From NCBI GenBank assembly GCA_020630955.1, contig JAHDIE010000015.1, forward strand, positions 1 through 64,000: 64,000 nucleotides of DNA. Reading direction: 5' to 3'. Both the position numbers and the translations under genes were made by a program. Below are positions 1,164 through 16,493 of the stretch, in pieces. The stretch's first letter is position 1; every line of letters starts with the position of its first letter. Below the pieces are notes generated by a model, which worked only from the letters and a program-made list of their open reading frames with translations, made no database searches and was not told the origin of the DNA. The DNA is from Saprospiraceae bacterium (GTDB lineage Bacteria; Bacteroidota; Bacteroidia; Chitinophagales; Saprospiraceae).

Positions 1164-2483
1164 CTATAAAGTTGGCTTGGCAGATCTTATGTTCATACTT
1201 CCGTAAATAGCAAAAGCCAAAAGGAGAGCATATTCTAAAAATAAGACTATACTATGTTCTTGCACTGGATTACTGTCATAGGCAGAATAAGATAACATCA
1301 CTAAAAATGACCAGCATAAAATCAAATATTGCCATCTTGCATTAAACACAGCAAATGCTATAAGTACTCCAAGATACCAAGGGTGGATCGTGGTACTGAA
1401 AAGCAGATATACTAAGTACAATGTTGGTATCTGAGAAACTACCAATTCTACCCGAGGTTCTCTTATTAATTTGGAAGATACTTTTATTATAATGACAAAG
1501 CTGATGAAAGCCAATAAAGGTCCAACAAGAGCAATCATATTATACCCCTTATTCAAATAACCCAACCATCTACCTAAATAATAGATACTGGCATTGAACT
1601 CAAAGGATCGAAAATATAAATCAACAGAATCCAATAGATTATCAAGTTTTGATCCATACAACATCAATCCAAATCCCAATGCAACCAAAATACTTGCTGG
1701 CACAAAAAAGTGAAGCCATTTTTTTTTCTTAATTAAATAAAATAGCAACATAGGTCCGAGCAAAAATGGATGCAATTTTGTTAATATTCCAAATGCATAT
1801 AGAATTCCAGCTTGCCAATATTTTTCCTCAAGAAGATAAAAACACATCCATACCAAGGCAGCTATCATTAAAACTTCCGCATGGATGTTTCCAACCAGCT
1901 CCGTAATGATTAATGGATTTAAGAAATAAACCATTGATAATTTTTGATCTTTCCCAAAATGATCAAGAATTTTTACTAAACCTATTACCACCAATACATC
2001 AGCCAATAAATAGATACACTTCATTAATATGGCAGTTGACACCACAGATTTCCCCAATGCAACTGTTACCCAAAAAACAAACTGTAGCACTGGAGGATAT
2101 ATAGTATAATAATCTTTAGAATTTAACAGTTGAAAGACTTCTTGCATTTCAGCTGAAAGTACTACCATATCCATAAGCACCCTTGGCGTATAGTCGAATG
2201 GATGTATACCTTCCAACCAAAGTTTTCCATCCCAAAAAAATCGATAAATATCATCGGATAGATTAGGGAATAAAAAGATTGTAATAACTCTAAGCAGCAA
2301 TCCAAGTAATAAAAGACTACGAAATGAAAATTTTCCACATTTTAATATCAAATATGAATAGCTTAAAAAGCAAATCGAAATGTGAACAATTATACAAGAA
2401 AAATCATCTTGTTGACAAAACATCATTTGAATTGCAAAAGCAACACAATAGATGATTACCAACAAAACCAACTTCCAATTCAT
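1164..2483 (-). CDS. Polytopic GT-C type glycosyltransferase (GT87/mannosyltransferase-like)
   Basis: This 439-residue protein is almost entirely hydrophobic segments separated by short loops, as in GT-C fold glycosyltransferases that use polyprenyl-phosphate sugars. The first periplasmic loop holds the acidic stretch NLSDDIYRFFWDGKLWLEG (about 74-92), matching the position of the catalytic acidic motif in this fold and the common Bacteroidota pattern D-D-x-Y-R-x-x-W-D-G. It starts 8 nt after the stop of a processive GT2 gene and is two genes away from a DPM-synthase-like GT2. A polyprenyl-phosphate hexose made by the latter could be its donor. The acceptor is unknown. Membrane glycosyltransferase is well supported, the precise family less so. 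Confidence 0.75.
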   Translation of the reverse strand: MNWKLVLLVIIYCVAFAIQMMFCQQDDFSCIIVHISICFLSYSYLILKCGKFSFRSLLLLGLLLRVITIFLFPNLSDDIYRFFWDGKLWLEGIHPFDYTPRVLMDMVVLSAEMQEVFQLLNSKDYYTIYPPVLQFVFWVTVALGKSVVSTAILMKCIYLLADVLVVIGLVKILDHFGKDQKLSMVYFLNPLIITELVGNIHAEVLMIAALVWMCFYLLEEKYWQAGILYAFGILTKLHPFLLGPMLLFYLIKKKKWLHFFVPASILVALGFGLMLYGSKLDNLLDSVDLYFRSFEFNASIYYLGRWLGYLNKGYNMIALVGPLLAFISFVIIIKVSSKLIREPRVELVVSQIPTLYLVYLLFSTTIHPWYLGVLIAFAVFNARWQYLILCWSFLVMLSYSAYDSNPVQEHSIVLFLEYALLLAFAIYGSMNIRSAKPTL

Positions 2484-2491
2484 GGCAAGTT

Positions 2492-3973
2492 TTATGAATT
2501 TTGAAGATGCCTTATAGAATAATAAAAAATGGTTCCAAAACCTATTGACAAGGCCAAGTGATATATGATTAAAGAGGTAGTTCCCGTATATACAGCTGCA
2601 ATGACCGCAAGTAGAAAATATATTGAAAGTACTCCCTCCATGATTGTGGCAAATGAAATTTTAGTTTTACGGTATTTTCCTTTATTAAATTTATCTTGGA
2701 GCGAAACAATATTAAACTTTGGGGTTCTGATAAAAGCAGATTTTTTACCTCTATATCCTTGCAATACAGCAATAGAATTGTGAAGTGACAATCCCATTGA
2801 CAAAGATAAAAATACAGGAAACAGAAAAATAAACTTAATGATCTTTCTGATCAACGATTGACCTTGCCATGCCGTTTGAACATTGGCTACAAAGTAAATA
2901 ATACTAATAGACATTAAACTTATCATAAAGACAGCCAATATGTCCATGTTAAAATTAATCTTCCCAATAAAATAAATTAAAGGCACTGAAAAAACACCTA
3001 TGATAAATATGAATAGGAAAACCGAACTACTTAATAAATGTGAACTTGCATGAAATTTTTCGATCATAGAAAGATCTGATTTCCAAATCGTTGGAAGAAT
3101 TTTTCGTGCCGTTTCAGCACCACCTTTCATCCATCTAAATTGTTGAGATTTAAGCCCATGCATTTCTGCAGGTAATTCTGCTGGTGCCAAAACATCTTCT
3201 AAGAATATAATTTCCCATCCCTTAAGTTGAGCCCTATAACTTAAATCTAAATCTTCAGTCAAAGTATCTGCTTCCCAACCTCCAGCTTCTTCTATGCACT
3301 TTGCTCTCCATATTCCGGCTGTTCCATTAAATTGTAATAGATAATTCCCTTTGTACCTTCCTTTCTGCTCAACAGTAAAATGAACGTTCAATTGAAATGC
3401 CTGCAACTCTGTAAGAAGTGAATAGTTTTGGTTGATATGTCCCCATCGGGTTTGCACAACTCCAATTTCATCATTCTTGAAAAAAGGCATAGTTTTCTTC
3501 AGAAAGTCTGGTTCAGGAAGAAAGTCAGCATCAAAAATTGCAACAAATTCAGAATCACAAAACTTCATTGCTTCTTTTAGAGCACCAGCTTTGTAACCAA
3601 CTCTATCCTTTCTAGTGATTTGCTCAATATCAAAACCTAAGGCTTTATACTCATTTACTTTGGCCAAGGTTATTTCAACTGTTTCATCCGTTGAATCATC
3701 CAATACATGAATTTGTAATTTATCTTTAGGATAATCCAATTTGCAAATATTATCAATCAACCTTTCCACAACATATTGTTCATTGAAGATTGGTAATTGA
3801 ATGGTAACCTTGGGCAAATAGCCATCATCTTCAGGCTTATTTATCTCTCGAACATTTTTTAATTTATATTTCACCAATAGATGAAATTGCATTAAGCAAA
3901 ATATTGTTATAAAAGTCAATCCAACTAAATAAATCCCAAATATTATATACCCTAAAATCTCTATTATTGTCAT
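2492..3973 (-). CDS. Processive family 2 glycosyltransferase (cellulose synthase-like)
   Basis: The protein has 493 residues: one N-terminal membrane segment (about 5-30), a GT-A domain, and several C-terminal membrane segments (about 310-490). All motifs of processive GT2 enzymes are visible: LDDSTDET (D92, D93), the DxD motif in IFDADFLPEPD (D148, D150), the TED motif at 239-241, and QQFRW (277-281), the Q(Q/R)xRW signature of membrane beta-glycosyltransferases. These use UDP-sugars in the cytoplasm and extrude or elongate glycans or glycolipids. It is spaced 6 nt from the upstream GT2 gene and 8 nt from the next, so the three are one operon. The sugar and product are not identifiable; single-glucosyl transfer to a lipid is also possible. 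Confidence 0.87.
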   Translation of the reverse strand: MTIIEILGYIIFGIYLVGLTFITIFCLMQFHLLVKYKLKNVREINKPEDDGYLPKVTIQLPIFNEQYVVERLIDNICKLDYPKDKLQIHVLDDSTDETVEITLAKVNEYKALGFDIEQITRKDRVGYKAGALKEAMKFCDSEFVAIFDADFLPEPDFLKKTMPFFKNDEIGVVQTRWGHINQNYSLLTELQAFQLNVHFTVEQKGRYKGNYLLQFNGTAGIWRAKCIEEAGGWEADTLTEDLDLSYRAQLKGWEIIFLEDVLAPAELPAEMHGLKSQQFRWMKGGAETARKILPTIWKSDLSMIEKFHASSHLLSSSVFLFIFIIGVFSVPLIYFIGKINFNMDILAVFMISLMSISIIYFVANVQTAWQGQSLIRKIIKFIFLFPVFLSLSMGLSLHNSIAVLQGYRGKKSAFIRTPKFNIVSLQDKFNKGKYRKTKISFATIMEGVLSIYFLLAVIAAVYTGTTSLIIYHLALSIGFGTIFYYSIRHLQNS

Positions 3974-3979
3974 TTTGAA

Positions 3980-4669
3980 TTATAGCAATTTAAAAATAGT
4001 CCACAGGATTTTATGCCCTGCTAAAATAGTCCCCTTTAAGGTTCCCGAAACCTTCGATACTCCAATTCGCTTGCGATAAGTTACAGCTACTTCCTCATAT
4101 TCTAATTTATGCTTTGCAGCCTTAACTTGCATTTCGACAGTCCATCCAAAATCTTTATCAACCATTTCTATATCCATCAATTTTGTATATCTGATTGCAC
4201 GAAATGGACCTAAGTCAGTAAACTTATAAGAATAGAATAGTCGTATCAAGTTTGTTGCTAACCAATTGCCAAAAATTTGTTGCGGCATCATAGCGCCCTT
4301 CTCCAAATTTCCTAATACTCGTGATCCAATCACTAAATCCTTAGATCTATGTAAAATTGGTTCCACAATCTTTGTCATTTCCTCAGGGTGGTCAGAATAA
4401 TCACCATCCAAAAAAACAACAATGTCTGGTTTTATATCTTTCTCCCCAATGAACTCGATTCCTTTCAAACAAGCATTACCATAACCTGCTATGGGTTGAT
4501 CAACCACAGTAGCCCCAGCAGAAAGAGCACGCTCTTTCGTTTGATCCTTACTTGCATTATTACAAACTATGATATCTCGTACCAAGCCAATAGGTATATC
4601 TCCAATTACCTTCGCAATAGAATCTTCTTCATTATAGGCTGGTATGATAACATCAATTATTGCATCCAT
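3980..4669 (-). CDS. Family 2 glycosyltransferase (dolichyl/polyprenyl-phosphate sugar synthase-like)
   Basis: A soluble GT-A domain of 229 residues begins with DVIIPAYNEEDSIAKV and carries FLDGDYSDHPEEM, the DxD region of DPM1/UgtP-type GT2 enzymes that transfer a hexose from a nucleotide sugar to polyprenyl phosphate at the inner membrane face. No C-terminal membrane segments are present, as in short DPM synthases. A longer frame begins four codons earlier at TTG; I chose the ATG at 4669 because it starts right before the first beta strand. It is the first gene of the glycosyltransferase operon and may feed the GT-C enzyme two genes downstream. Family call firm, donor sugar unknown. Confidence 0.85.
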   Translation of the reverse strand: MDAIIDVIIPAYNEEDSIAKVIGDIPIGLVRDIIVCNNASKDQTKERALSAGATVVDQPIAGYGNACLKGIEFIGEKDIKPDIVVFLDGDYSDHPEEMTKIVEPILHRSKDLVIGSRVLGNLEKGAMMPQQIFGNWLATNLIRLFYSYKFTDLGPFRAIRYTKLMDIEMVDKDFGWTVEMQVKAAKHKLEYEEVAVTYRKRIGVSKVSGTLKGTILAGHKILWTIFKLL

Positions 4670-4802
4670 CTTAAAGTGCAAAGTTAAAGGAAATAAGTTC
4701 CAACAAGTGTAGGAACTGAGACAATTCTTCCATTCCTATTCCAAACCAAAATGAACCAAAAGATAGAATCAAAGGAAAACTATATCTTTAAAGAAAAACG
4801 GC

Positions 4803-5489
4803 ATGCAAATTCTTATCCAAAGCCCTGCAGCTAAACCTTCTCAAAGTCTTTCATTCTATGAAAGTTTAAATTTCAAAGTGATTTCTAATGAAAATCCGGT
4901 TATAGTTTCAGATGGTCAAGTCCATATTGAAATTAACCCTAAAAAATTCGTCAGAGCAGGCATCAAAGTTTTTAAAGAAAATTGGAAGAAAGATGTTGAA
5001 CTACTCAAGACATTTACGAAAGTACACAAAACCGATTCAGGCTTCCTTTGTAGTGATCCTTCAAATTGTTGGATCTACCTAGAGGAAGGGACTCCGTCCG
5101 TAGAATTAACCAAAATGGAATGCTTCTCAAGCCTTGGAAATTTTGCAGGAATGTCACTAGAGTCTATGGATATTCAAAAATCAATCGATATCTGGGCTTG
5201 CCTAGGATTTGAACACAGTATGGGAGCCATCGAAAATGGATGGTATGCCATGACCGAAAAAAATGGATTTGGTGTCAGCTTTATGACACCAAACTCATGC
5301 CCTCACCAATTCTATAATCCATCTCTTACTTATTTTAATGGAGGTAAAAATCTACCTGTAATTGACAAAATTAAACTAGCAGGAATCCCTATAGCAGAAG
5401 AGATATCAACATTCAATAAAGAAGGTATTGTAGATAATGTAATCGTTAAAGATCCTGGTGGATATGGCTTTTTTATTTTTAATGATTGA
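4803..5489 (+). CDS. VOC (glyoxalase/bleomycin-resistance fold) family protein
   Basis: The 228-residue protein looks like two consecutive VOC half-domains (about 1-110 and 118-228), each starting with a pattern typical of the fold: a substrate-binding strand, then a phase such as SLSFYESLNFKV or SIDIWACLGFEHS. Paired betaalphabetabetabeta modules form a metal-binding cup in glyoxalases, dioxygenases and resistance proteins. I cannot identify a confident set of metal ligands, so the reaction is not assigned. It stands alone between the divergent glycosyltransferase operon and a lipoprotein gene. The ATG at 4803 is preceded by TATCTTTA, one mismatch from the Bacteroidota -7 element. Confidence 0.7.
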   Translation: MQILIQSPAAKPSQSLSFYESLNFKVISNENPVIVSDGQVHIEINPKKFVRAGIKVFKENWKKDVELLKTFTKVHKTDSGFLCSDPSNCWIYLEEGTPSVELTKMECFSSLGNFAGMSLESMDIQKSIDIWACLGFEHSMGAIENGWYAMTEKNGFGVSFMTPNSCPHQFYNPSLTYFNGGKNLPVIDKIKLAGIPIAEEISTFNKEGIVDNVIVKDPGGYGFFIFND

Positions 5490-5572: not shown

Positions 5573-7048
5573 ATGAATGAAAAATGGTTCGCTTGGATAT
5601 TCGCTATCGGCTTGTTTGCAATCCTACTTAGCGCATGTAGAGAAGATAATTTTTACGATGGTGGTAATGCTATGGTAACTACTTCATTGGATACTTTAAC
5701 ATTTGATACTGTTTTTACAGAAATTGGTACAACAACCAAGTTTTTTAAGATTTATAACCAAGAAGATGCTACCATCATCATTGATCAAATTGCTCTTGCT
5801 GATCCATCAGGTATTTTTAGATTAAATGTAGATGGAACTCCATCACAAGAAGTAAACAATATTCAAATTGCTGCAAAAGACAGTATCTACGTTTTTGTAG
5901 AAGCAACAATAGACCCAAATCTCCCACTTGAAGTAAGTCCATACATTATTGAAGATTTGGTAAACATTAGCATTGATGAAAAAACCAATTCAGTGTTATT
6001 ACAGGCATGGGGTCAGGATGCTAATTATATTACTGGCCCTGGAAGTGTAAGTCAAATCAATCTACTCACCTGCAATCTTCAAGAAAGAGTTTGGGATGAT
6101 CCAAAACCCTATATCATATACGGTACACTATTTATAGATAGTTGCACATTGATTCTCCCACCAGGTACAAAGGTTTATGTTCATGGAGGTGTTGCAATAA
6201 ATGATCAATTTGGAGTATACACTTCAGGCCTTCTTTATTTTCTTCCCAATGCAAGAATACTATCGCAAGGTACTCCCGAAGAACCAGTTACCATACTTTC
6301 AGACCGTTTAGAAGAAGAGTACGAAGATATAAAAGGTCAGTGGTTTGGAATATATTTAGATAGGAGTAGAGAAAATAGATTTGAACATACAACCATAAGT
6401 CAATCTTTAACCGGAGTCCGAGTTGATTCCGCGGCCAGTGCCTCATTTTACGCCTGTGAAATAAGTCATACAGCAGCTCCAGGAATAGTGGGAAGCCATG
6501 CAGATATTTATGCAGAAAACACCTTAATCCATAATTCAGGAACTGCCAATGTAGGTATAGACCATGGTGGTAATTATGAATTCAATAATTGCACTTTCGT
6601 AAATTACAATAATCAAGACGAAGCCATACAGTTAGCAAATTTTACTTGCTATGATCAAGGCTGTGGGCTATTTGATGATAATCCTTTAAAAGCCACTTTT
6701 AGAAATTGCCTAATTCTTGGAAATGAAAACGATGAGATTGCCCTCGCAGATTGGAATCCAGAAGACCCAACTGACTTTAACTATAAATTCGAAAATTGCT
6801 TTGTACAAGTAGACGAATTATTGGATAACGAATTTTATGCAGATTTTTTCAACCATTGTACAGATTGCCTCAATAATCCACCAAAAGATACTATGTTTCT
6901 AAATATGGATGAATATGACTTTAGGCTGGATACTTTTTCTAAAGCCATTGATGCAGGCCGAAATCTCCCTTTTGTTATTGGCGACCTTCTTGGTAATCCA
7001 CGTGATGATGGCAGTTATGATATCGGATGTTATGAATTTAAATTATAA
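5573..7048 (+). CDS. Secreted lipoprotein with parallel beta-helix-like repeats
   Basis: A 491-residue lipoprotein: basic start, hydrophobic stretch and lipobox LLSAC ending at about C22. The middle (about 200-400) is rich in short repeated beta-like strands such as NRFEHTTISQ, SASFYACEISHT and YEFNNCTFVNYNN, the pattern of right-handed parallel beta-helix proteins. The end (SKAIDAGRN, then DDGSYDIGCYEF) is the typical close of choice-of-anchor Q-type secreted proteins in Bacteroidota. A TTG three codons upstream could extend the frame; the ATG gives the better signal peptide. The gene is followed after 3 nt by a second lipoprotein gene, so both are probably co-transcribed. Function unknown; surface binding or structural role is inferred. 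Confidence 0.72.
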   Translation: MNEKWFAWIFAIGLFAILLSACREDNFYDGGNAMVTTSLDTLTFDTVFTEIGTTTKFFKIYNQEDATIIIDQIALADPSGIFRLNVDGTPSQEVNNIQIAAKDSIYVFVEATIDPNLPLEVSPYIIEDLVNISIDEKTNSVLLQAWGQDANYITGPGSVSQINLLTCNLQERVWDDPKPYIIYGTLFIDSCTLILPPGTKVYVHGGVAINDQFGVYTSGLLYFLPNARILSQGTPEEPVTILSDRLEEEYEDIKGQWFGIYLDRSRENRFEHTTISQSLTGVRVDSAASASFYACEISHTAAPGIVGSHADIYAENTLIHNSGTANVGIDHGGNYEFNNCTFVNYNNQDEAIQLANFTCYDQGCGLFDDNPLKATFRNCLILGNENDEIALADWNPEDPTDFNYKFENCFVQVDELLDNEFYADFFNHCTDCLNNPPKDTMFLNMDEYDFRLDTFSKAIDAGRNLPFVIGDLLGNPRDDGSYDIGCYEFKL

Positions 7049-7051
7049 ATC

Positions 7052-7429
7052 ATGAAAAGAACACTCTTTTTATTTCTTCTTATTTCAATCTTTGCTTGTA
7101 ATAAAGAAGACTGCATTGAGCTTGAATTAGAAAATCCAACCACCGTTAAAAACCAAGACTATTTATGCATCAATGGTCAAGAATATCAATTGTTGGTTGA
7201 TGATGCTAGATGCCCCTGCGAAACAGATTGCTTTTGGGAGGGTGAATTTGTATTAAGTCTACAAGATGCAAATGATGAAATAGTCTTCATCTATAATCAG
7301 ATTGATTCAAGCTCAAATGAAAGTCCTTTTTTTGCAGAAACTTTTGAAATTTCGAATGTTAGTAATGAGGGCCCATGTGGAGATCCATCAAAGGTTGATA
7401 TGGTATTATTTGAGATTCTAATTCAATAA
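7052..7429 (+). CDS. Small cysteine-rich lipoprotein, function unknown
   Basis: 125 residues with a lipoprotein signal (LISIFAC, lipid-attachment C16). The mature part holds RCPCETDCFWEGEF (about 52-65), a variant of the R-C-P-x-x-x-x-C-x-W-x-G motif seen in many short Bacteroidota lipoproteins, and another cysteine near the C-terminus (GPCGDP), suggesting disulfides in the periplasm or at the surface. It lies 3 nt after the beta-helix lipoprotein gene. Its stop codon abuts the stop of the convergent transporter gene with no base between them. I do not know its function. Confidence 0.68.
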   Translation: MKRTLFLFLLISIFACNKEDCIELELENPTTVKNQDYLCINGQEYQLLVDDARCPCETDCFWEGEFVLSLQDANDEIVFIYNQIDSSSNESPFFAETFEISNVSNEGPCGDPSKVDMVLFEILIQ

Positions 7430-8734
7430 TCAATTTGCATCTTTATTATCAAAGCTTACACCCATTAAGCTAACAAAGCCTATCAAAAATAGAACAGCCA
7501 ATGCTAGAACACTAGAACGAAGATCGTCGGTTAAATGAAGAACCATACCATACACAAAAGTACCCGCAACTATTGAAACTTTAAACAGCACGTCATAGAA
7601 ACTGTAGTAAGAAGTAAGATCATCTACCTCTTCTTGAAGTAATTTTGTATAGCTACTTCTAGCCAATGATTGTATACCACCCAGCACCATACCTACCAAT
7701 GCCACCAAGACATAGAAGGTCGACTTTGTTGTTGTATAATATGCGGCAATACATATTAATATCCAAATCATAATCTGCGCTGCTAATGCAAACTTATTCC
7801 CTTTTATTTTTGATACATAAGCAAAAAGATATGCACCAGCAATAGCCACTAATTGCAAGATTAATATGAGAATGATCAACTCAGTTTGGTTAAAACCGAT
7901 TTCTACACTTGCAAATACAGAAGCAACATAAATGATGGTATTTACTCCTGCAGAAAAGAAAAAGAATGAAAAAAGAAAACGTCGTACATTTCTATCCTTC
8001 ATCACCAAAAAGAATGTTTCCTTCAGCTCGACCAAACCCTTTTTTACAATTCCTGGCTTTCGTGGTTCCTGATTATCCTGTGGCATTCTTCTAAAAGTAA
8101 TTTGCGCAAAGCCTAACCACCAAATTCCTACCAATAAAAATCCAATTCTTGAACCTGAATTCCCATCACTGAAACCAAACCAATCAGGCTTCATAACCAT
8201 AACTAAAATAAACAATAAGAGCAAAACACTTCCGAAATATCCATAAGCGTACCCCTTTGCACTCACTTTATCATACTGATCTTCAGTTGCAATTTGTGGC
8301 AGGTAGGAATTATAAAAAACCAAACTTCCAGCATATCCTATCGTACCTAAGGCAAAAGCAATGATTCCTATCCATAGAAAAGTTTCATTTTCAAAAAAAT
8401 ACAATGCAGAACAACCTACAGCTCCAAGGATGGTAAAAAATTTCAAAAATTTCATTCGTCTTCCTCCAGCATCCGCTATCCCAGATAATATGGGTGACAG
8501 AAAAGCGATCAACAAATATGATGCAGATACGATAAAACTTTGGACTGAGGTATTGCTATATTCTACACCAAAAATGCGGATCAAATCTGGCGAATTAAGA
8601 AGGAAATAAATCGGAAATATAGCAGTAGAAATTACTAGTGAGTATACAGAATTGGCCCAATCAAAAAAGGCCCAACCATTTATGGTCTTCTTATTGTTTA
8701 ACTCAAAATTTTGGTCGGTAACAAGCTGGTTCAT
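7430..8734 (-). CDS. MFS transporter, UMF1 (Atg22-like) family
   Basis: 434 residues with about 12 hydrophobic segments. The N-terminus NGWAFFDWANSVYSLVISTAIFP carries the WAxxDWANSxY signature of UMF1/Atg22-type major facilitator proteins (shown here in parts: GWAFFDWANS at about 21-30). These are inner-membrane permeases of uncertain substrate in bacteria; yeast Atg22 is a vacuolar amino-acid exporter. The gene is monocistronic on the minus strand, divergent from rimK, and its stop directly abuts that of the convergent lipoprotein gene. Family assignment is strong, substrate unknown. Confidence 0.85.
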   Translation of the reverse strand: MNQLVTDQNFELNNKKTINGWAFFDWANSVYSLVISTAIFPIYFLLNSPDLIRIFGVEYSNTSVQSFIVSASYLLIAFLSPILSGIADAGGRRMKFLKFFTILGAVGCSALYFFENETFLWIGIIAFALGTIGYAGSLVFYNSYLPQIATEDQYDKVSAKGYAYGYFGSVLLLLFILVMVMKPDWFGFSDGNSGSRIGFLLVGIWWLGFAQITFRRMPQDNQEPRKPGIVKKGLVELKETFFLVMKDRNVRRFLFSFFFFSAGVNTIIYVASVFASVEIGFNQTELIILILILQLVAIAGAYLFAYVSKIKGNKFALAAQIMIWILICIAAYYTTTKSTFYVLVALVGMVLGGIQSLARSSYTKLLQEEVDDLTSYYSFYDVLFKVSIVAGTFVYGMVLHLTDDLRSSVLALAVLFLIGFVSLMGVSFDNKDAN

Positions 8735-8852
8735 AACCTTAATATAAGAATAGCTTTCGACAATCCCACAAAAGAATAAAATACTTTAATTTATATCGAT
8801 TTTGGCACAATAAATGACCTTTTAAGAATAATTTGACGTCCCAAAAAGAGAC

Positions 8853-8881
8853 TTGAAAATCTATTTTTTCACTTAACTTTA
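8853..8881 (+). promoter_or_regulatory. Likely promoter of the rimK operon
   Basis: TTG at 8853-8855 and TAACTTTA at 8874-8881 are 18 nt apart and fit the Bacteroidota -33 (TTG) and -7 (TAnnTTTG) elements with one mismatch in the latter. The rimK ATG follows 10 nt later, giving a very short leader. Confidence 0.4.
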
Positions 8882-8890
8882 TAGCTATCA

Positions 8891-9769
8891 ATGAATATTG
8901 CCGTTCTATCTAGAAATCCAGCACTTTATAGCACCCAAAGTCTTGTTCAGGCAGCAAGGAGAAGACACCATTATGTTCGAGTCATTGATTATGTCAACTG
9001 TGATATGGTTTTAGATGCAACAAATCCAAAAATCATGTACAATGGACAACAATTGGGAAATATAGATGCTATTATTCCTAGAATTGGTTCTGGTCATACT
9101 GCCTATGGAGCACAAATTATTAGACAGTTTAAGGGTGCAGGTGTGTATTCAACTTTGGATGAAAATGCACTTTTGGAAGCAAGAAATAAAATTGCATCAA
9201 TGCAAATTTTATCAAATAATGGAATCCTCATTCCTAAGTCTTTAATCTCTAACAATTCTTTATTTTTTGATGATATTCTCAACCAATTAGATGATGAAAA
9301 AGTAGTTATCAAATTGGTAAATGGAACACATGGTTTAGGAGTTATTCTGGCGGATACTCATAAGCAAGCCACCTCAATAATGGAAGCTTTCTCTAGATCG
9401 AAAAGTAAAGTTTTTATGCAAGAATTTATTGAAGAAGCAGGTGGTGCAGACATTAGGGTCTTTATTGTCAATGGTCAAATTGAAGGAACCATGAAACGTC
9501 AAGCCAAAGAAGGAGAATTCCGATCCAACCTTCACAGAGGGGCCACAGCAAATATAGAACCCATATCAGACGAAGAAGCAAGAGTTGCACTGAAAGCAGC
9601 AGAAATTTTAGGCTTAAAAATCGCAGGCGTAGATATGCTTCGATCCAAGAAAGGACCTATGATTCTTGAAGTAAATGCATCTCCAGGGTTAGAAGGAATA
9701 GAAACAACTACACGAAATGATATAGCAGGAAAAATTATTGCTATGATAGAGGAAGACACTAAAAAATAA
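8891..9769 (+). CDS. rimK: RimK: ribosomal protein S6-L-glutamate ligase (ATP-grasp)
   Basis: 292 residues, the usual RimK length. It starts MNIAVLSRNPALYSTQSLVQA like RimK (cited in part) and has an ATP-grasp domain from about 95: the lysine-rich ATP-binding strands KVVIKLVNGTHGLGV (137-151), FMQEFIEEAGGADIRVF (about 176-192), and the metal-binding end MILEVNASPGLEGIE (about 257-271). RimK adds glutamate residues to the C-terminus of ribosomal protein S6, or makes poly-glutamate, and affects translation. The next gene, an AstE/AspA-like hydrolase, starts 2 nt after the stop and a PBP4 gene follows, so this is an operon. Whether the substrate here is S6 is inferred from family. Confidence 0.9.
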   Translation: MNIAVLSRNPALYSTQSLVQAARRRHHYVRVIDYVNCDMVLDATNPKIMYNGQQLGNIDAIIPRIGSGHTAYGAQIIRQFKGAGVYSTLDENALLEARNKIASMQILSNNGILIPKSLISNNSLFFDDILNQLDDEKVVIKLVNGTHGLGVILADTHKQATSIMEAFSRSKSKVFMQEFIEEAGGADIRVFIVNGQIEGTMKRQAKEGEFRSNLHRGATANIEPISDEEARVALKAAEILGLKIAGVDMLRSKKGPMILEVNASPGLEGIETTTRNDIAGKIIAMIEEDTKK

Positions 9770-9771
9770 GA

Positions 9772-10731
9772 ATGAGTCAAGCAAGGACAATAACCATTGA
9801 AAAAGAGGAAATTAGACCAGGTGAGTACAAACAAATCTCTATCAATGTTGGGCGACTACCTTCCGACACCAGAATTAATATCAGAGCACATGTATTCCAT
9901 GGCAAGGAAGCTGGTCCCACGGTTCTAATATTAGGAGGGATTCATGGAGATGAAATCGTAGGCGTAGAAATTGTAAGAAGAAGTATAGCAGAAGGACATT
10001 TTGAGGGTATCCAGGCAGGAACAATAATCGCAATTCCGTTATTGAATGTCTATGGTTTTATAAATTTTAGTCGAGAGGTGCCAGATGGTAAAGATGTCAA
10101 TAGAAGTTTCCCAGGGAGTACTTCAGGCTCTCTTGCTAGCCGTGTTGCTCGTACACTTTCCAAGAAAATTTTACCCTATGTAGATTATGCTATGGATTTT
10201 CATACAGGCGGTGCCTCGCGGTATAATTATCCTCAGGTTCGATACACCAAAAATTATCCTGAATCAAAATCCCTTGCTGATGTTTTCAAGGCACCCTTTC
10301 AAATTGAAAACACAGTCATTAAAAACTCATTCAGAAAAACTTGTAGAGATATGAATATCCCTTCAATTGTGTTTGAAGGAGGCGAATCCGTACGACTCGA
10401 TGGATATTCTATTATTGTTGGCCTTAAAGGCATACAAAGAGTACTCAATCATTTGGGTATCTTTGATAAAAATACCCCAGCCCCCGATTACAAAGTGATT
10501 AATATCAAAAGAACCAGTTGGCTGCGTGCTCCATATTCGGGCATGTTTGTTTGGTCCCAATCTTCGGGAACGTTTGTAAAAGTAGGCGAACCATTGGGAA
10601 TGATATATGATCCATTTGGAACAAAATCGGTAACTGTTAATTCTAAATATGAAGGATACATTATTGGACACAACAATGCCTCAGTGGTCAATCAAGGAGA
10701 TGCTCTATTCCATATTGGATACGAGATTTAG
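9772..10731 (+). CDS. Succinylglutamate desuccinylase/aspartoacylase-family metallohydrolase
   Basis: 319 residues of the AstE/AspA branch of the M14 fold. Zinc ligands and catalytic residues are visible: H58 and E61 in GGIHGDE, H144 in DFHTGG, N110-R111 in NRSFPG, and E202 in VFEGGES. A C-terminal beta domain (about 235-319) with SGMFVW and GEPLGMIYD resembles the end of many bacterial family members. The family cleaves amide bonds next to acidic groups, for example N-succinylglutamate or N-acetylaspartate. The gene starts 2 nt after rimK, a pairing seen widely, so the substrate may be the glutamate tails made by RimK; this is inference. Confidence 0.85.
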   Translation: MSQARTITIEKEEIRPGEYKQISINVGRLPSDTRINIRAHVFHGKEAGPTVLILGGIHGDEIVGVEIVRRSIAEGHFEGIQAGTIIAIPLLNVYGFINFSREVPDGKDVNRSFPGSTSGSLASRVARTLSKKILPYVDYAMDFHTGGASRYNYPQVRYTKNYPESKSLADVFKAPFQIENTVIKNSFRKTCRDMNIPSIVFEGGESVRLDGYSIIVGLKGIQRVLNHLGIFDKNTPAPDYKVINIKRTSWLRAPYSGMFVWSQSSGTFVKVGEPLGMIYDPFGTKSVTVNSKYEGYIIGHNNASVVNQGDALFHIGYEI

Positions 10732-12166
10732 CCTTATTCTTTTTATCTGCCTTTCGGCAAATGGTTTCTCCCAAGAAAGCAATACACTACAAAGTAAATT
10801 AGATCGTTTTCTACTTTCTTCAGAATTTAAGTATGCATCTGTTAGCATTACTGTTGTCGATTATGAAACCAGCGAACATCTTGCACAAGTCAATCCGGAC
10901 ATGTCTATCATACCAGCATCCTCGCTTAAATTATTGACCACCTTAAGTGCAGTTGAATTGCTAAGTGATACTTTCCAATTTGTTACAAGAATAACCCACG
11001 ATGGATACATCGAAGCAGATGGTACACTCAAAGGAAATATTTACATTGAAGGAACTGGTGACCCTACCTTTGGTTCAGGGAAGTTTAGAGAAGAAATGGA
11101 TTTTGAAAAACTATTTCCAAGAATTGCCAAGGCCATAACTGACAAAGGCATCAGCTGTGTAGATGGATATATTGTTGCTGATGAATCCGAATTCAACGCA
11201 TTCCCAATCTCACCATCTTGGCAATGGAATGACTTAGGAAATTATTATGCTTCAGGAGCATGGGGTATCAACATCAATGAAAATGAATACAAAATTATTT
11301 TCACAAACAGATCAACCATCGGACGGCGGCCTTCGATTAGTCATCATTATCCATACATTCCTAATTTGGTATTTTCTAATGAAGTAAGCGTAGACAGCTC
11401 ACATACTGGTGACCAGGCATATATTTTTGGCGGGCCTTATAATTATCAAAAAAGAATAGTAGGAACCATCCCTCAGGGTAACAAATCATTTACAATCAAA
11501 GGATCAATACCAGATCCACCTCTCTTTGCTGCATACTTTCTTTCAGAAAAACTGAAGGAAAGAAAAATCAAAACAGGAGGATATAAAACAGAATATTATC
11601 CCAAAGCAAAATCACAAAGGAAGTTAATTACAAGAATCAAATCTCCTTATCTTATAGATATTGCTCAAGCTGCAAATTACGACAGCAATAACCTCTATTG
11701 CGAAGCTATACTTAAGGCAATGGGAAAGAAAAAAAATGGAGAAGCAACTGGACAAAATGGAATTGCAGCCATCAGAGGAATCCTGCGAAAATTTGGCGTT
11801 GACCACAAGGCGCTTAACATGGAAGATGGATCTGGACTTTCTGCTCGAAACAATATTAGTAGTCACCTTTTGGCTGATTTTCTACAACAATTTACTAAGA
11901 AAAAAGGGATCGAATACACCAAAGAATTACTACCCAAAGCTGGGTCCCAAGGAACAGTCAGAGGAGTTCTTAGAAATTCTCCAGCACAAGGTCATGTCTG
12001 GATGAAATCGGGATCAATGAATCGTGTCCTGACATATACAGGCATCCTGCAAGACAGCAGAGGAAATTGGAAAACCTTTAGCATAATGATCAATGGCTTT
12101 GATGTCAAGTATAGAGTAATGAGAAGTAAAGTAGAAAAAATGGTGGGTTGGATTTACCGATATTAA
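10700..12166 (+). CDS. dacB: D-Ala-D-Ala carboxypeptidase/endopeptidase, PBP4 family
   Basis: The 488-residue protein carries all three motifs of class C penicillin-binding proteins: SxxK in PASSLKLL (S74-K77), SxN in DSNNLYCE, and KSG in MKSGSM near the C-terminus. PBP4 enzymes trim or cut peptidoglycan cross-links in the periplasm. I chose the ATG at 10700 rather than 10649 because it places a clean signal peptide (MLYSILDTRFSLILFICL then ANGFSQ) at the N-terminus. The start then overlaps the metallohydrolase gene by 32 nt, implying translational coupling. Large inserted domains I and III between motifs 1 and 2 are consistent with PBP4 length. Confidence 0.9.
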   Translation: MLYSILDTRFSLILFICLSANGFSQESNTLQSKLDRFLLSSEFKYASVSITVVDYETSEHLAQVNPDMSIIPASSLKLLTTLSAVELLSDTFQFVTRITHDGYIEADGTLKGNIYIEGTGDPTFGSGKFREEMDFEKLFPRIAKAITDKGISCVDGYIVADESEFNAFPISPSWQWNDLGNYYASGAWGININENEYKIIFTNRSTIGRRPSISHHYPYIPNLVFSNEVSVDSSHTGDQAYIFGGPYNYQKRIVGTIPQGNKSFTIKGSIPDPPLFAAYFLSEKLKERKIKTGGYKTEYYPKAKSQRKLITRIKSPYLIDIAQAANYDSNNLYCEAILKAMGKKKNGEATGQNGIAAIRGILRKFGVDHKALNMEDGSGLSARNNISSHLLADFLQQFTKKKGIEYTKELLPKAGSQGTVRGVLRNSPAQGHVWMKSGSMNRVLTYTGILQDSRGNWKTFSIMINGFDVKYRVMRSKVEKMVGWIYRY

Positions 12167-14363: not shown

Positions 14364-16493
14364 ATGAAAATGAATCAGGTCCTAATTGCTGGAGGAGCGG
14401 GCTTCCTTGGCAGCACAATCGTCAACACCCTCCTCCAAAGTAATTACAAAATTAATGTTTTAGACTCTTTAAAATTTGGAGCGAAATCCCTAAGCAAATT
14501 TAAAGATCATGAAAACTTCACATTTTATTTTGGTGATATTACCAACAAAGATGATGTTGAAAGAGCAATTCAAAATTGTCAATATGTCATTGCCTTGGCT
14601 GCAATCGTAGGCGATCCGGCATGCCGAGTCAATCCAGATCTAACCCACAAAATCAATTTTCAAGGAAGCGAAAATTTAATTAATGCTTCAATCAAACATA
14701 AAGTCAAGAGGTTTCTATTTGCCTCATCTTGTAGTGTATATGGCCAAAATCCTGATTTAGACCTGAAAGAAGAAGCCAAACTCAACCCAATTTCTCTTTA
14801 TGCAGAAAGCCAGGTTGCAACAGAAAATGCTTTAATAAAAGTAAAAGATGAACTTAACTTTACAATCTTAAGGCTTTCAACGCTATATGGATTATCGCCA
14901 AGGAGAAGGTTCGATCTTGTTATAAATAACTTCGCTGGCAAATTAGCAAATGGTGAACAAATTGAAATTATTGGTGGCCAACAATGGAGACCATTTTTAC
15001 ATATTAAAGATGCGGCCAAAGCTTTTCAAAATGTTATTGAAGCAGATGAAGAAATGGTAAATGGGCAAATATTTAATATTGGAGCCAATGAAAACAACTT
15101 CCAAATGTCCGAAATAGGAGAAATCATCCGAGCAAATATTCCAAACGCTAAGTTGAAAACTCTTGCTGAAAGATCTGATGCTAGAAGTTATCATGTCAAT
15201 TTTGACAAAGCCAAAACGACTCTTGGATTCAAACCGAAAAACAATATCCATACTGCCATAAAAGAAATGGTAGAAGATATACAAAAAAACCAAATCGATA
15301 CCCAGAACTACCTACACCACAATGGAAAAGCTTGGAGTTACTTCCAAGAAGAAAAATATATTCCATTTGCAGTACCAGAAATTTCACAAATTGAAAAGCA
15401 AGAAATATTGAAGACCATTGATTCAGGATGGTTGTCTGCAGGACCGAAGGTTGCAAAATTTGAAAATGCGCTTTTTGATTATTTTGGAAAGGATGACCTT
15501 CATTGCATTTCCGTTAGTTCGTGTACAGCAGCCTTACACTTGCAATTGCTAGCAAATAATATAGGCCCCGGAGATGAGGTGATCACCTCAGTAAACACCT
15601 TCGCTGCAACTGTTATTACTATCCTTCAATGCGGTGCAAAACCAGTTCTTGTCGATATCAATCCTGAAGATCTGAATCTAGACATAGACCAAGTTAAAGA
15701 AAAGATAACTCCGAAAACCAAAGCCATTGTACCAGTCTATTATGCAGGAAACCCTTGCGATCATTATAAGTTAAAAAAAATATGTCAAAAAAATGGAATA
15801 TTAATTCTGGCAGATGCTGCTCATGCTTTTGGTGGCTGTTTTGATGGACAAAAAATTGGAACCTATGAAGATTCTGCAGCTTTCAGTTTCTATGCAACTA
15901 AAAATCTCACAACAGGAGAAGGAGGACTTATCACCACTTCAAATCAGAAACTTGCGGAAAGGCTTAAAAAAATGAGATCATTTGGTAGACAAACATTCAA
16001 TGATAAACCAAATTACCTATATGAAATTACGGAAGAAGGATACAAATATAACTTTACCGATATCCAAGCATCCTTTGGAATCCATCAGTTAAAAAAAATA
16101 GATGCTTTCAATCAATATCGATCGGAGATTGTAGCCTTCTATAATGAAAACTTTAAGGATTGTCCTTACTTAACATTACCAAGAACAAATAAGCTTGCAA
16201 AAAGCACAAACCACCTCTACCCGCTTCAAGTTCATTTCAACAAATTATCATTAAGTAAACTTGAATTTATTAAAGCCATAGCTCAAAAGAAAATTGGACT
16301 TTCAGTGCACTATGTACCCATTCATCACCATTCCTACTTTCAAAGGAAGCTCGGAATAAAAGCAAATGATTTTAAGCAATGCAATTTCTTTTACGATCAA
16401 GAAATTTCGTTACCAGTCTATACTAAATTAAAGATCGAAGATTTGAAAAGAATTACAAATGCCGTTATAGAAACCATTGCTATTCATACATAG
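14364..16493 (+). CDS. Fused sugar-nucleotide epimerase (SDR) and DegT-type aminotransferase
   Basis: One 709-residue frame joins two enzymes. Residues about 3-305 form an extended SDR domain: NAD-binding GGAGFLGS, D at the end of beta 2, SSCSVYG, and Y146-A-E-S-Q150, where the catalytic lysine of YxxxK is replaced by glutamine. Residues about 325-709 form a DegT/DnrJ/EryC1/StrS aminotransferase, with SSCTAALH, DAAHAFG (D484) and the internal-aldimine lysine K513 in FYATKNLTTGEGG. Members transaminate keto-sugars to aminosugars for surface polysaccharides. The ATG at 14364 is used; a TTG four codons earlier and an ATG two codons later are alternatives. It stands alone, not in a polysaccharide cluster. 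Confidence 0.88.
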   Translation: MKMNQVLIAGGAGFLGSTIVNTLLQSNYKINVLDSLKFGAKSLSKFKDHENFTFYFGDITNKDDVERAIQNCQYVIALAAIVGDPACRVNPDLTHKINFQGSENLINASIKHKVKRFLFASSCSVYGQNPDLDLKEEAKLNPISLYAESQVATENALIKVKDELNFTILRLSTLYGLSPRRRFDLVINNFAGKLANGEQIEIIGGQQWRPFLHIKDAAKAFQNVIEADEEMVNGQIFNIGANENNFQMSEIGEIIRANIPNAKLKTLAERSDARSYHVNFDKAKTTLGFKPKNNIHTAIKEMVEDIQKNQIDTQNYLHHNGKAWSYFQEEKYIPFAVPEISQIEKQEILKTIDSGWLSAGPKVAKFENALFDYFGKDDLHCISVSSCTAALHLQLLANNIGPGDEVITSVNTFAATVITILQCGAKPVLVDINPEDLNLDIDQVKEKITPKTKAIVPVYYAGNPCDHYKLKKICQKNGILILADAAHAFGGCFDGQKIGTYEDSAAFSFYATKNLTTGEGGLITTSNQKLAERLKKMRSFGRQTFNDKPNYLYEITEEGYKYNFTDIQASFGIHQLKKIDAFNQYRSEIVAFYNENFKDCPYLTLPRTNKLAKSTNHLYPLQVHFNKLSLSKLEFIKAIAQKKIGLSVHYVPIHHHSYFQRKLGIKANDFKQCNFFYDQEISLPVYTKLKIEDLKRITNAVIETIAIHT

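Follow-up and report, generated by a model that had tools for sequence, protein, structure and literature searches.

In Pseudomonas aeruginosa, a dehydrogenase whose NADH is recycled with alpha-ketoglutarate (WbpB) is coupled to a DegT aminotransferase (WbpE). WbpB, a Gfo/Idh enzyme rather than an SDR, is a protein separate from WbpE. ArnA and ArnB are enzymes of one pathway. For the enzyme closest in structure to the SDR half studied here, Cj1427, a ping-pong C4-dehydrogenase mechanism is described in which tightly bound NADH is re-oxidised by alpha-ketoglutarate to give L-2-hydroxyglutarate (PMC10680097). In SDRs, the triad lysine is credited with bringing down the pKa of the tyrosine, and SimC7 is presented in the same source as an active extended-SDR reductase without the canonical triad, having Ser-Ile-His (PMC5039031). 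Multidomain enzymes derived from gene fusion are mentioned for deoxy-sugar synthesis (PMC8987622).

The window (the whole stretch of 64,000 nucleotides analysed here) encodes an extended SDR and a DegT aminotransferase in one chain, with the following features.

14364-16493, forward strand: fused SDR-DegT gene, 709 residues plus stop; open frame without internal stop, with full-length fused orthologues
14376-15317, forward strand: SDR half, residues 5-318, of the Cj1427 lineage (Pfam Epimerase at 6-240; AF2 model; 6vo6 as best structural match)
14376-14411, forward strand: glycine-rich NAD-binding motif, residues 5-16, QVLIAGGAGFLG; G10, G13 and G16 do not vary among 51 unfused SDRs and are retained by all three fused proteins
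14727-14729, forward strand: Ser122, which we take to be the triad serine from the spacing in GalE; invariant in the three fused proteins
14799-14801, forward strand: Tyr146 of the YxxxK motif (codon TAT), kept; invariant in 51 of 51 unfused SDRs and in the three fused proteins
14811-14813, forward strand: Gln150 (CAG), where the catalytic lysine would be expected; of 51 unfused SDRs, 50 have K and the other has R, and the three fused proteins have Q, Q and R
15318-15362, forward strand: junction, residues 319-333, HNGKAWSYFQEEKYI; H319, N320 and W324 are invariant in the three fused proteins
15360-16466, forward strand: DegT aminotransferase half, residues 333-701 (Pfam match at 340-701; PseC profile from residue 333; ArnB as nearest solved structures)
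15813-15815, forward strand: Asp484, invariant in the three fused proteins; presumably the residue facing the PLP pyridine nitrogen, judging by fold-type I enzymes
15900-15902, forward strand: Lys513 (AAA), the PLP Schiff-base lysine; present in every one of the three fused proteins and throughout an alignment of 13 aminotransferases, where it is K186

Both Pfam domains, Epimerase at residues 6-240 and DegT_DnrJ_EryC1 at 340-701, scored far above their cut-offs, and the DegT family profile gave 376.1 bits against a cut-off of 19.8. A preliminary description of this DNA had reported one 709-residue chain with an SDR followed by a DegT aminotransferase, glutamine in place of the lysine of YxxxK and an intact PLP lysine, and all three hold, as the frame is open from 14364 to 16493, YAESQ stands at residues 146-150 and K513 is present. 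The GC content of the gene (0.352) is that of the window (0.353).

The model of the SDR half (AF2, residues 1-324) had a pLDDT of 96.0 and a pTM of 0.93, and its best structural match was 6vo6 (Z 39.6, rmsd 1.6 over 301 residues, 31% identity), with which Foldseek agreed. The lead of 6vo6 is small, other extended SDRs trailing at Z 37.7 and below; 6vo6 and 6vo8, the best structural matches, are titled as Cj1427 in complex with NADH. Cj1427 was also the best phmmer match of this half, and a family profile built from 13 SDRs, the window's own among them, scored 6vo6 at 268.9 bits, the next chain reaching 155.1. With its GxxGxxG Rossmann fold and its closest similarity to Cj1427, the SDR half belongs to the Cj1427 lineage. 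For the aminotransferase half, ArnB enzymes were the nearest solved structures (1mdo, 4lc3) and PseC the best curated profile, and neither NCBIfam equivalog cut-off was reached (334.4 of 423.5 bits for PseC, 284.4 of 631 for the UDP-Ara4O aminotransferase (ArnB) model). A full-length model of the fusion made from two sequences had a pLDDT of 40.2.

A full-length match without a stop was present in three of 398 genomes of the family Saprospiraceae, namely the window's own (G000), G124 and G045. The orthologue in G124, a member of the window's genus, has 713 residues, is 64% identical and reads YAESQ (contig CALFDU010000013 of a Saprospiraceae MAG, handled as both L009 and L012), and that in G045 (L013), from a different genus, is 53% identical and reads YAKTR instead of YxxxK. 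The fusion was present in two of the six genomes of the window's genus. No fourth member appeared among the matches listed for samples of the class (395 genomes), the phylum (395), the order (386) and the family centred on G045 (377), which overlap each other. In the search for this architecture and for conservation of the glutamine, as suggested in the preliminary description, the fusion recurred, with Q in two proteins and R in the third.

The three fused proteins formed one clade in the SDR tree (support 100/98; 64 rows, with the fragment L100 dropped and L080 replaced by L013) and likewise in a quick tree of the aminotransferases (SH-aLRT 100), and the same branching in both fits inheritance of the two halves as a unit. 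Two further SDR-DegT fusions were encoded on IMG/VR contigs (L173 at 1954-4146 and L242 at 1963-4152, the SDR of the latter being more distant at 81.6 bits), which resemble the three in domain order within one chain and differ in having kept the lysine (YAGTK and YGATK), so that fusion by itself does not entail its loss. A single origin of the three and L173 was rejected for the SDR half by the AU test (p-AU 0.0186), for a group named after the fusions had been seen, and L173 also stood apart from them in the aminotransferase quick tree. Besides, two IMG/VR contigs carried ORFs of 707-709 residues with a related SDR (YSELK) followed by about 400 residues without a Pfam match (L137 at 1279-3405 and L139 at 2998-5118), and similar ORFs were seen in L140-L143 and L148. 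Among phage records, three of the 175 that matched covered at least 80% of the query, and both of the two that were opened held two separate ORFs. Coverage of at least 80% at one place was reached by 212 of 1847 matching plasmid records; of the best 25 of these, several had no annotation, one listed no SDR and the rest named the two enzymes as separate features, and the one plasmid locus that was opened had two genes.

Comparison with relatives showed the loss of the lysine to be specific. Among 65 SDR relatives of at least 100 bits, distinct in residues 21-280 (L242 thus falls outside, and the truncated copy L080 was counted as the G045 row), the 61 unfused comprised 59 with YxxxK, one with YxxxR (L176) and one fragment without the site, and the four fused read Q, Q, R and K. 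Separate genes with YxxxK, which in the preliminary description would have spoken for a local accident, characterise the more distant relatives. Across 51 unfused reference SDRs, from which L173 and nine distant or long-branch rows were left out, 42 columns were at least 90% conserved, and of these 39 were kept in G000, 39 in G124 and 40 in G045, K150 being the sole column lost by all three. Tyr146 and all three NAD-motif glycines were unchanged, as were D34, R182, D184, D272, R274 and Y276; the Ser/Thr and Tyr of the triad were present as S122 and Y146 in all three proteins, and the lysine of YxxxK expected of a Cj1427-type extended SDR was replaced by Q, Q and R. The proteins also share Ala77 (His in 43 of 51 unfused) and His277 (Arg in 31 of 51); at the Ala77 position L173, whose fusion is separate, has IALAA. 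Filtering for columns basic in all three and rarely basic elsewhere, which only columns 96 and 308 passed, revealed no obvious replacement lysine. Given its presence in 50 of the 51 references and its described effect on the pKa of the tyrosine, an SDR that loses the lysine should lose activity. One unfused member of the family, encoded on an IMG/VR contig beside a DegT aminotransferase gene (L176 at 4294-5283), has YxxxR.

The gene order of unfused relatives was compared with that of the fusion. A DegT gene lay at most 600 bp downstream on the same strand in 18 of 21 unfused SDR loci, many of which were found by a two-half query that favours pairs; at the nine loci matched by the SDR only (G027, G036, G063, G029, G081, G632, G654, G428 and G758) it was downstream in six. 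Three loci departed from this: in G428 the DegT gene was 2.7 kb off, and none was found in G063 or in G758, whose contig stops shortly afterwards. The fusion therefore has the order of the operon. Directly upstream of the SDR, three of the 21 loci (G016, G083 and G927) had a gene for L-2-hydroxyglutarate oxidase (481-533 bits against the NCBIfam cut-off of 299), which fits a Cj1427-like reaction with its by-product cleared. The remaining 18 had no adjoining oxidase, and none was present in eight stretches around near aminotransferases lacking a Cj1427-like SDR or in the three fused loci. The oxidase is not exclusive to Cj1427-like SDRs, as a fragment of it stood beside a GalE-like SDR and an aminotransferase in L037. 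The oxidase had no match in three of the eight genomes searched (G000, G124 and G672), and in G045 it was encoded on a contig other than that of the fusion; its absence from the matches in G000 counts against Cj1427-like chemistry in the window's genome.

In three contigs the oxidase, the Cj1427-like SDR and the DegT aminotransferase stood in a row on one strand (L265 at 6820-10143, L085 at 7930-11333 and L113 at 6550-9886), which suggests a cassette for sugar amination recycled by alpha-ketoglutarate. No link of this oxidase to SDR-DegT pairs was found in the literature searched, most subscription journals being outside its scope. The gene order suggests that Cj1427-type SDRs are alpha-ketoglutarate-recycled partners of DegT aminotransferases, a role that would give a function to many genes annotated merely as 'NAD-dependent epimerase'.

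In the window, the fusion is flanked by a MarC-family gene on one side and a convergent adenylosuccinate synthetase gene on the other, with rbfA beyond. The nearest sugar-related genes noted are some 10 kb away on the left, where there are two for GT2 glycosyltransferases, and some 11 kb away on the right, where there is one for a phosphoglucomutase/phosphomannomutase. No polysaccharide cluster was seen among the 18 ORFs scanned with Pfam, out of 58 ORFs of at least 120 residues, and in G124 the two immediate neighbours have no Pfam match. The earlier statement that the gene is outside any polysaccharide cluster is thus upheld for the scanned part of the window and consistent with G124, and does not extend to G045, where the fusion is the last gene of such a cluster on the same strand. 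This cluster includes Poly_export, a Wzc-like ATPase, a bacterial sugar transferase, a flippase-type Polysacc_synt_3 gene and several genes for glycosyltransferases, together with a Wzy_C match that stayed under its cut-off and a gene of WecG/TagA type; next comes a Gfo/Idh oxidoreductase, which reached no NCBIfam equivalog cut-off, followed by a protein directly upstream of the fusion (L047 at 8195-9049, 284 residues) that had no Pfam, NCBIfam or convincing PDB match and no match in seven other genomes searched. A scan for promoters and terminators at the window's fusion gave a signal no higher than that of shuffled sequences. Elsewhere in the window, the longest ORF of an S13 peptidase overlaps the last 83 bases of the AstE/AspA-like ORF ahead of it (10649-10731), so that its true start is probably further downstream.

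The two halves of the fusion have diverged differently. Between the fused members, identity in the SDR half and in the aminotransferase half was 59.1 vs 68.5%, 45.1 vs 59.3% and 40.6 vs 58.8%, whereas in all 37 unfused comparisons the SDR was the better conserved, by a mean of 8.2 points; these comparisons required an aminotransferase identity of at least 50% and came from 15 loci, the three fused ones from three proteins, and neither set is independent. In other lineages, the SDR was anywhere from some 16 points better conserved than the aminotransferase to some 6 points worse, over the 25 comparisons listed out of 91. The contrast suggests that the constraint on the fused SDR half has altered, a suggestion confounded because the aminotransferase branches differ and the comparisons are not independent. 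Relative identity partly suggests that the SDR half is decaying; the conserved columns, of which 39-40 of 42 were kept, gave this no support.

We tentatively favour, at somewhat below an even chance, the view that the fusion is a single-chain bifunctional nucleotide-amino-sugar synthase whose SDR half works through an altered site. It would have originated by fusion of an operon pair, that is, a Cj1427-lineage SDR acting as NAD-dependent C4-dehydrogenase and an ArnB/PseC-like PLP aminotransferase. The SDR half would oxidise a hydroxyl of an NDP-sugar, probably at C4, with tightly held NAD, and would do so with a Ser-Tyr-Gln (or Arg) site; the keto-sugar may then pass, as the preliminary description suggested and as the gene order of the unfused loci indirectly supports, from the SDR site to that of the aminotransferase half, which would aminate the ketone using glutamate, and the alpha-ketoglutarate so formed might re-oxidise the bound NADH, yielding L-2-hydroxyglutarate. 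This reading is preferred because the tyrosine and nearly all conserved residues are kept despite only 41-59% identity in the SDR half. It is also supported by the recurrence of the fusion in three genomes with matching branching of both halves, by the likeness of the SDR half to Cj1427 and the mechanism described for that enzyme, by the SDR-then-aminotransferase order at 18 of 21 unfused loci and by the oxidase at three of the 21 against none of eight comparison loci. Against it stand the loss of a lysine that nearly all references have, the missing oxidase match in G000 and G124 and its absence next to 18 of the 21 unfused SDRs, the weaker conservation of the SDR half in all three fused comparisons, the reverse of what all 37 unfused ones show, and the Gfo/Idh oxidoreductase near the G045 fusion, which could supply the ketone instead. 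A stricter form, in which the protein is a self-contained converter of hydroxyl to amine, with a lysine-free SDR whose bound NAD(H) is re-oxidised by the alpha-ketoglutarate that its own aminotransferase makes from glutamate, appears unlikely. If true, the protein would not have to release free cofactor or keto-sugar, and the fusion would be the end-point of the cassette of Cj1427-type SDR, aminotransferase and L-2-hydroxyglutarate oxidase.

A serious rival, possible though on the whole doubtful, is that the SDR half, as in the binding or regulatory role suggested in the preliminary description, is a former dehydrogenase reduced to binding NAD(H) and/or the nucleotide-sugar and to docking, orienting or sensing substrate for the aminotransferase joined to it, the keto-sugar coming from another enzyme. 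Such a role is suggested by the identity of the only conserved column that all three proteins have lost, the catalytic lysine, which two different residues replace, and by the lower conservation of the SDR half (three of three fused comparisons, none of 37 unfused), the lack of an L-2-hydroxyglutarate oxidase match in G000 and G124 and the Gfo/Idh oxidoreductase near the fusion in G045. A pure binding domain would have no need of the tyrosine, yet Tyr146, Ser122 and the other conserved residues (39-40 of 42) are kept. The rate contrast is moreover confounded, because most comparators have an aminotransferase from a DegT branch other than that of the fusion and because the comparisons lack independence; in addition, an SDR less conserved than its partner, by as much as 6 points, occurs in other pairs too, within the 25 comparisons listed out of 91.

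Still less probable is an active SDR half whose reaction has changed to one less reliant on a lysine-lowered tyrosine, such as reduction or epimerisation of the keto-sugar before or after amination. Retention of the tyrosine with loss of the lysine, the shared Ala77 and His277 and the activity described for SimC7 without a canonical triad (PMC5039031) are in keeping with it; but the nearest solved relative is a dehydrogenase, the columns of the dehydrogenase lineage are kept, and SimC7, going by the same source, lacks the tyrosine as well and is hence no close parallel to the SDR of the fusion. A local mutation, frameshift or assembly join confined to one genome, the possibility raised in the preliminary description, would fit the rarity of the fusion and is nevertheless ruled out for practical purposes by the two fused orthologues, for the architecture and the lysine loss are common to three separately assembled genomes at 53-64% identity, the proteins form one clade in both trees, the fused ORF has no internal stop and its GC content matches that of the window.

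Among the residues of an SDR, the triad lysine counts as central to catalysis; in this natural clade it is the only conserved residue to have gone from every member, the remainder of the site being retained, which makes the fusion a good test case for its role.

In relation to known systems, no description of an SDR-DegT fusion or of a Cj1427-type SDR with YxxxQ was found in the literature searched, a search with most subscription journals outside its scope. The unfused SDR-DegT pairs of Bacteroidota and other bacteria have the SDR family and the order of the fusion, but they are two genes, have the lysine in 59 of 61 SDRs and carry aminotransferases mostly on branches of the DegT tree other than that of the fusion. 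Cj1427 of C. jejuni (6vo6, 6vo8), a GDP-D-glycero-D-manno-heptose C4-dehydrogenase, shares the RxRxDL and D-x-R-x-Y motifs, the glycine motif and the tyrosine with the fusion; unlike it, Cj1427 is single-domain, has the lysine (YGIDK) and is 31% identical. ArnB and PseC are similar to the second half but are separate proteins, and WbpB/WbpE share the logic proposed for the fusion. ArnA, which was among the PDB matches, also contains a nucleotide-sugar SDR in a fused protein, but one joined to a formyltransferase and belonging to another SDR branch. The fusion and its YxxxQ Cj1427-type SDR are thus a variant of known elements, the domains, the operon pairing and the fusion of nucleotide-sugar enzymes being already known.
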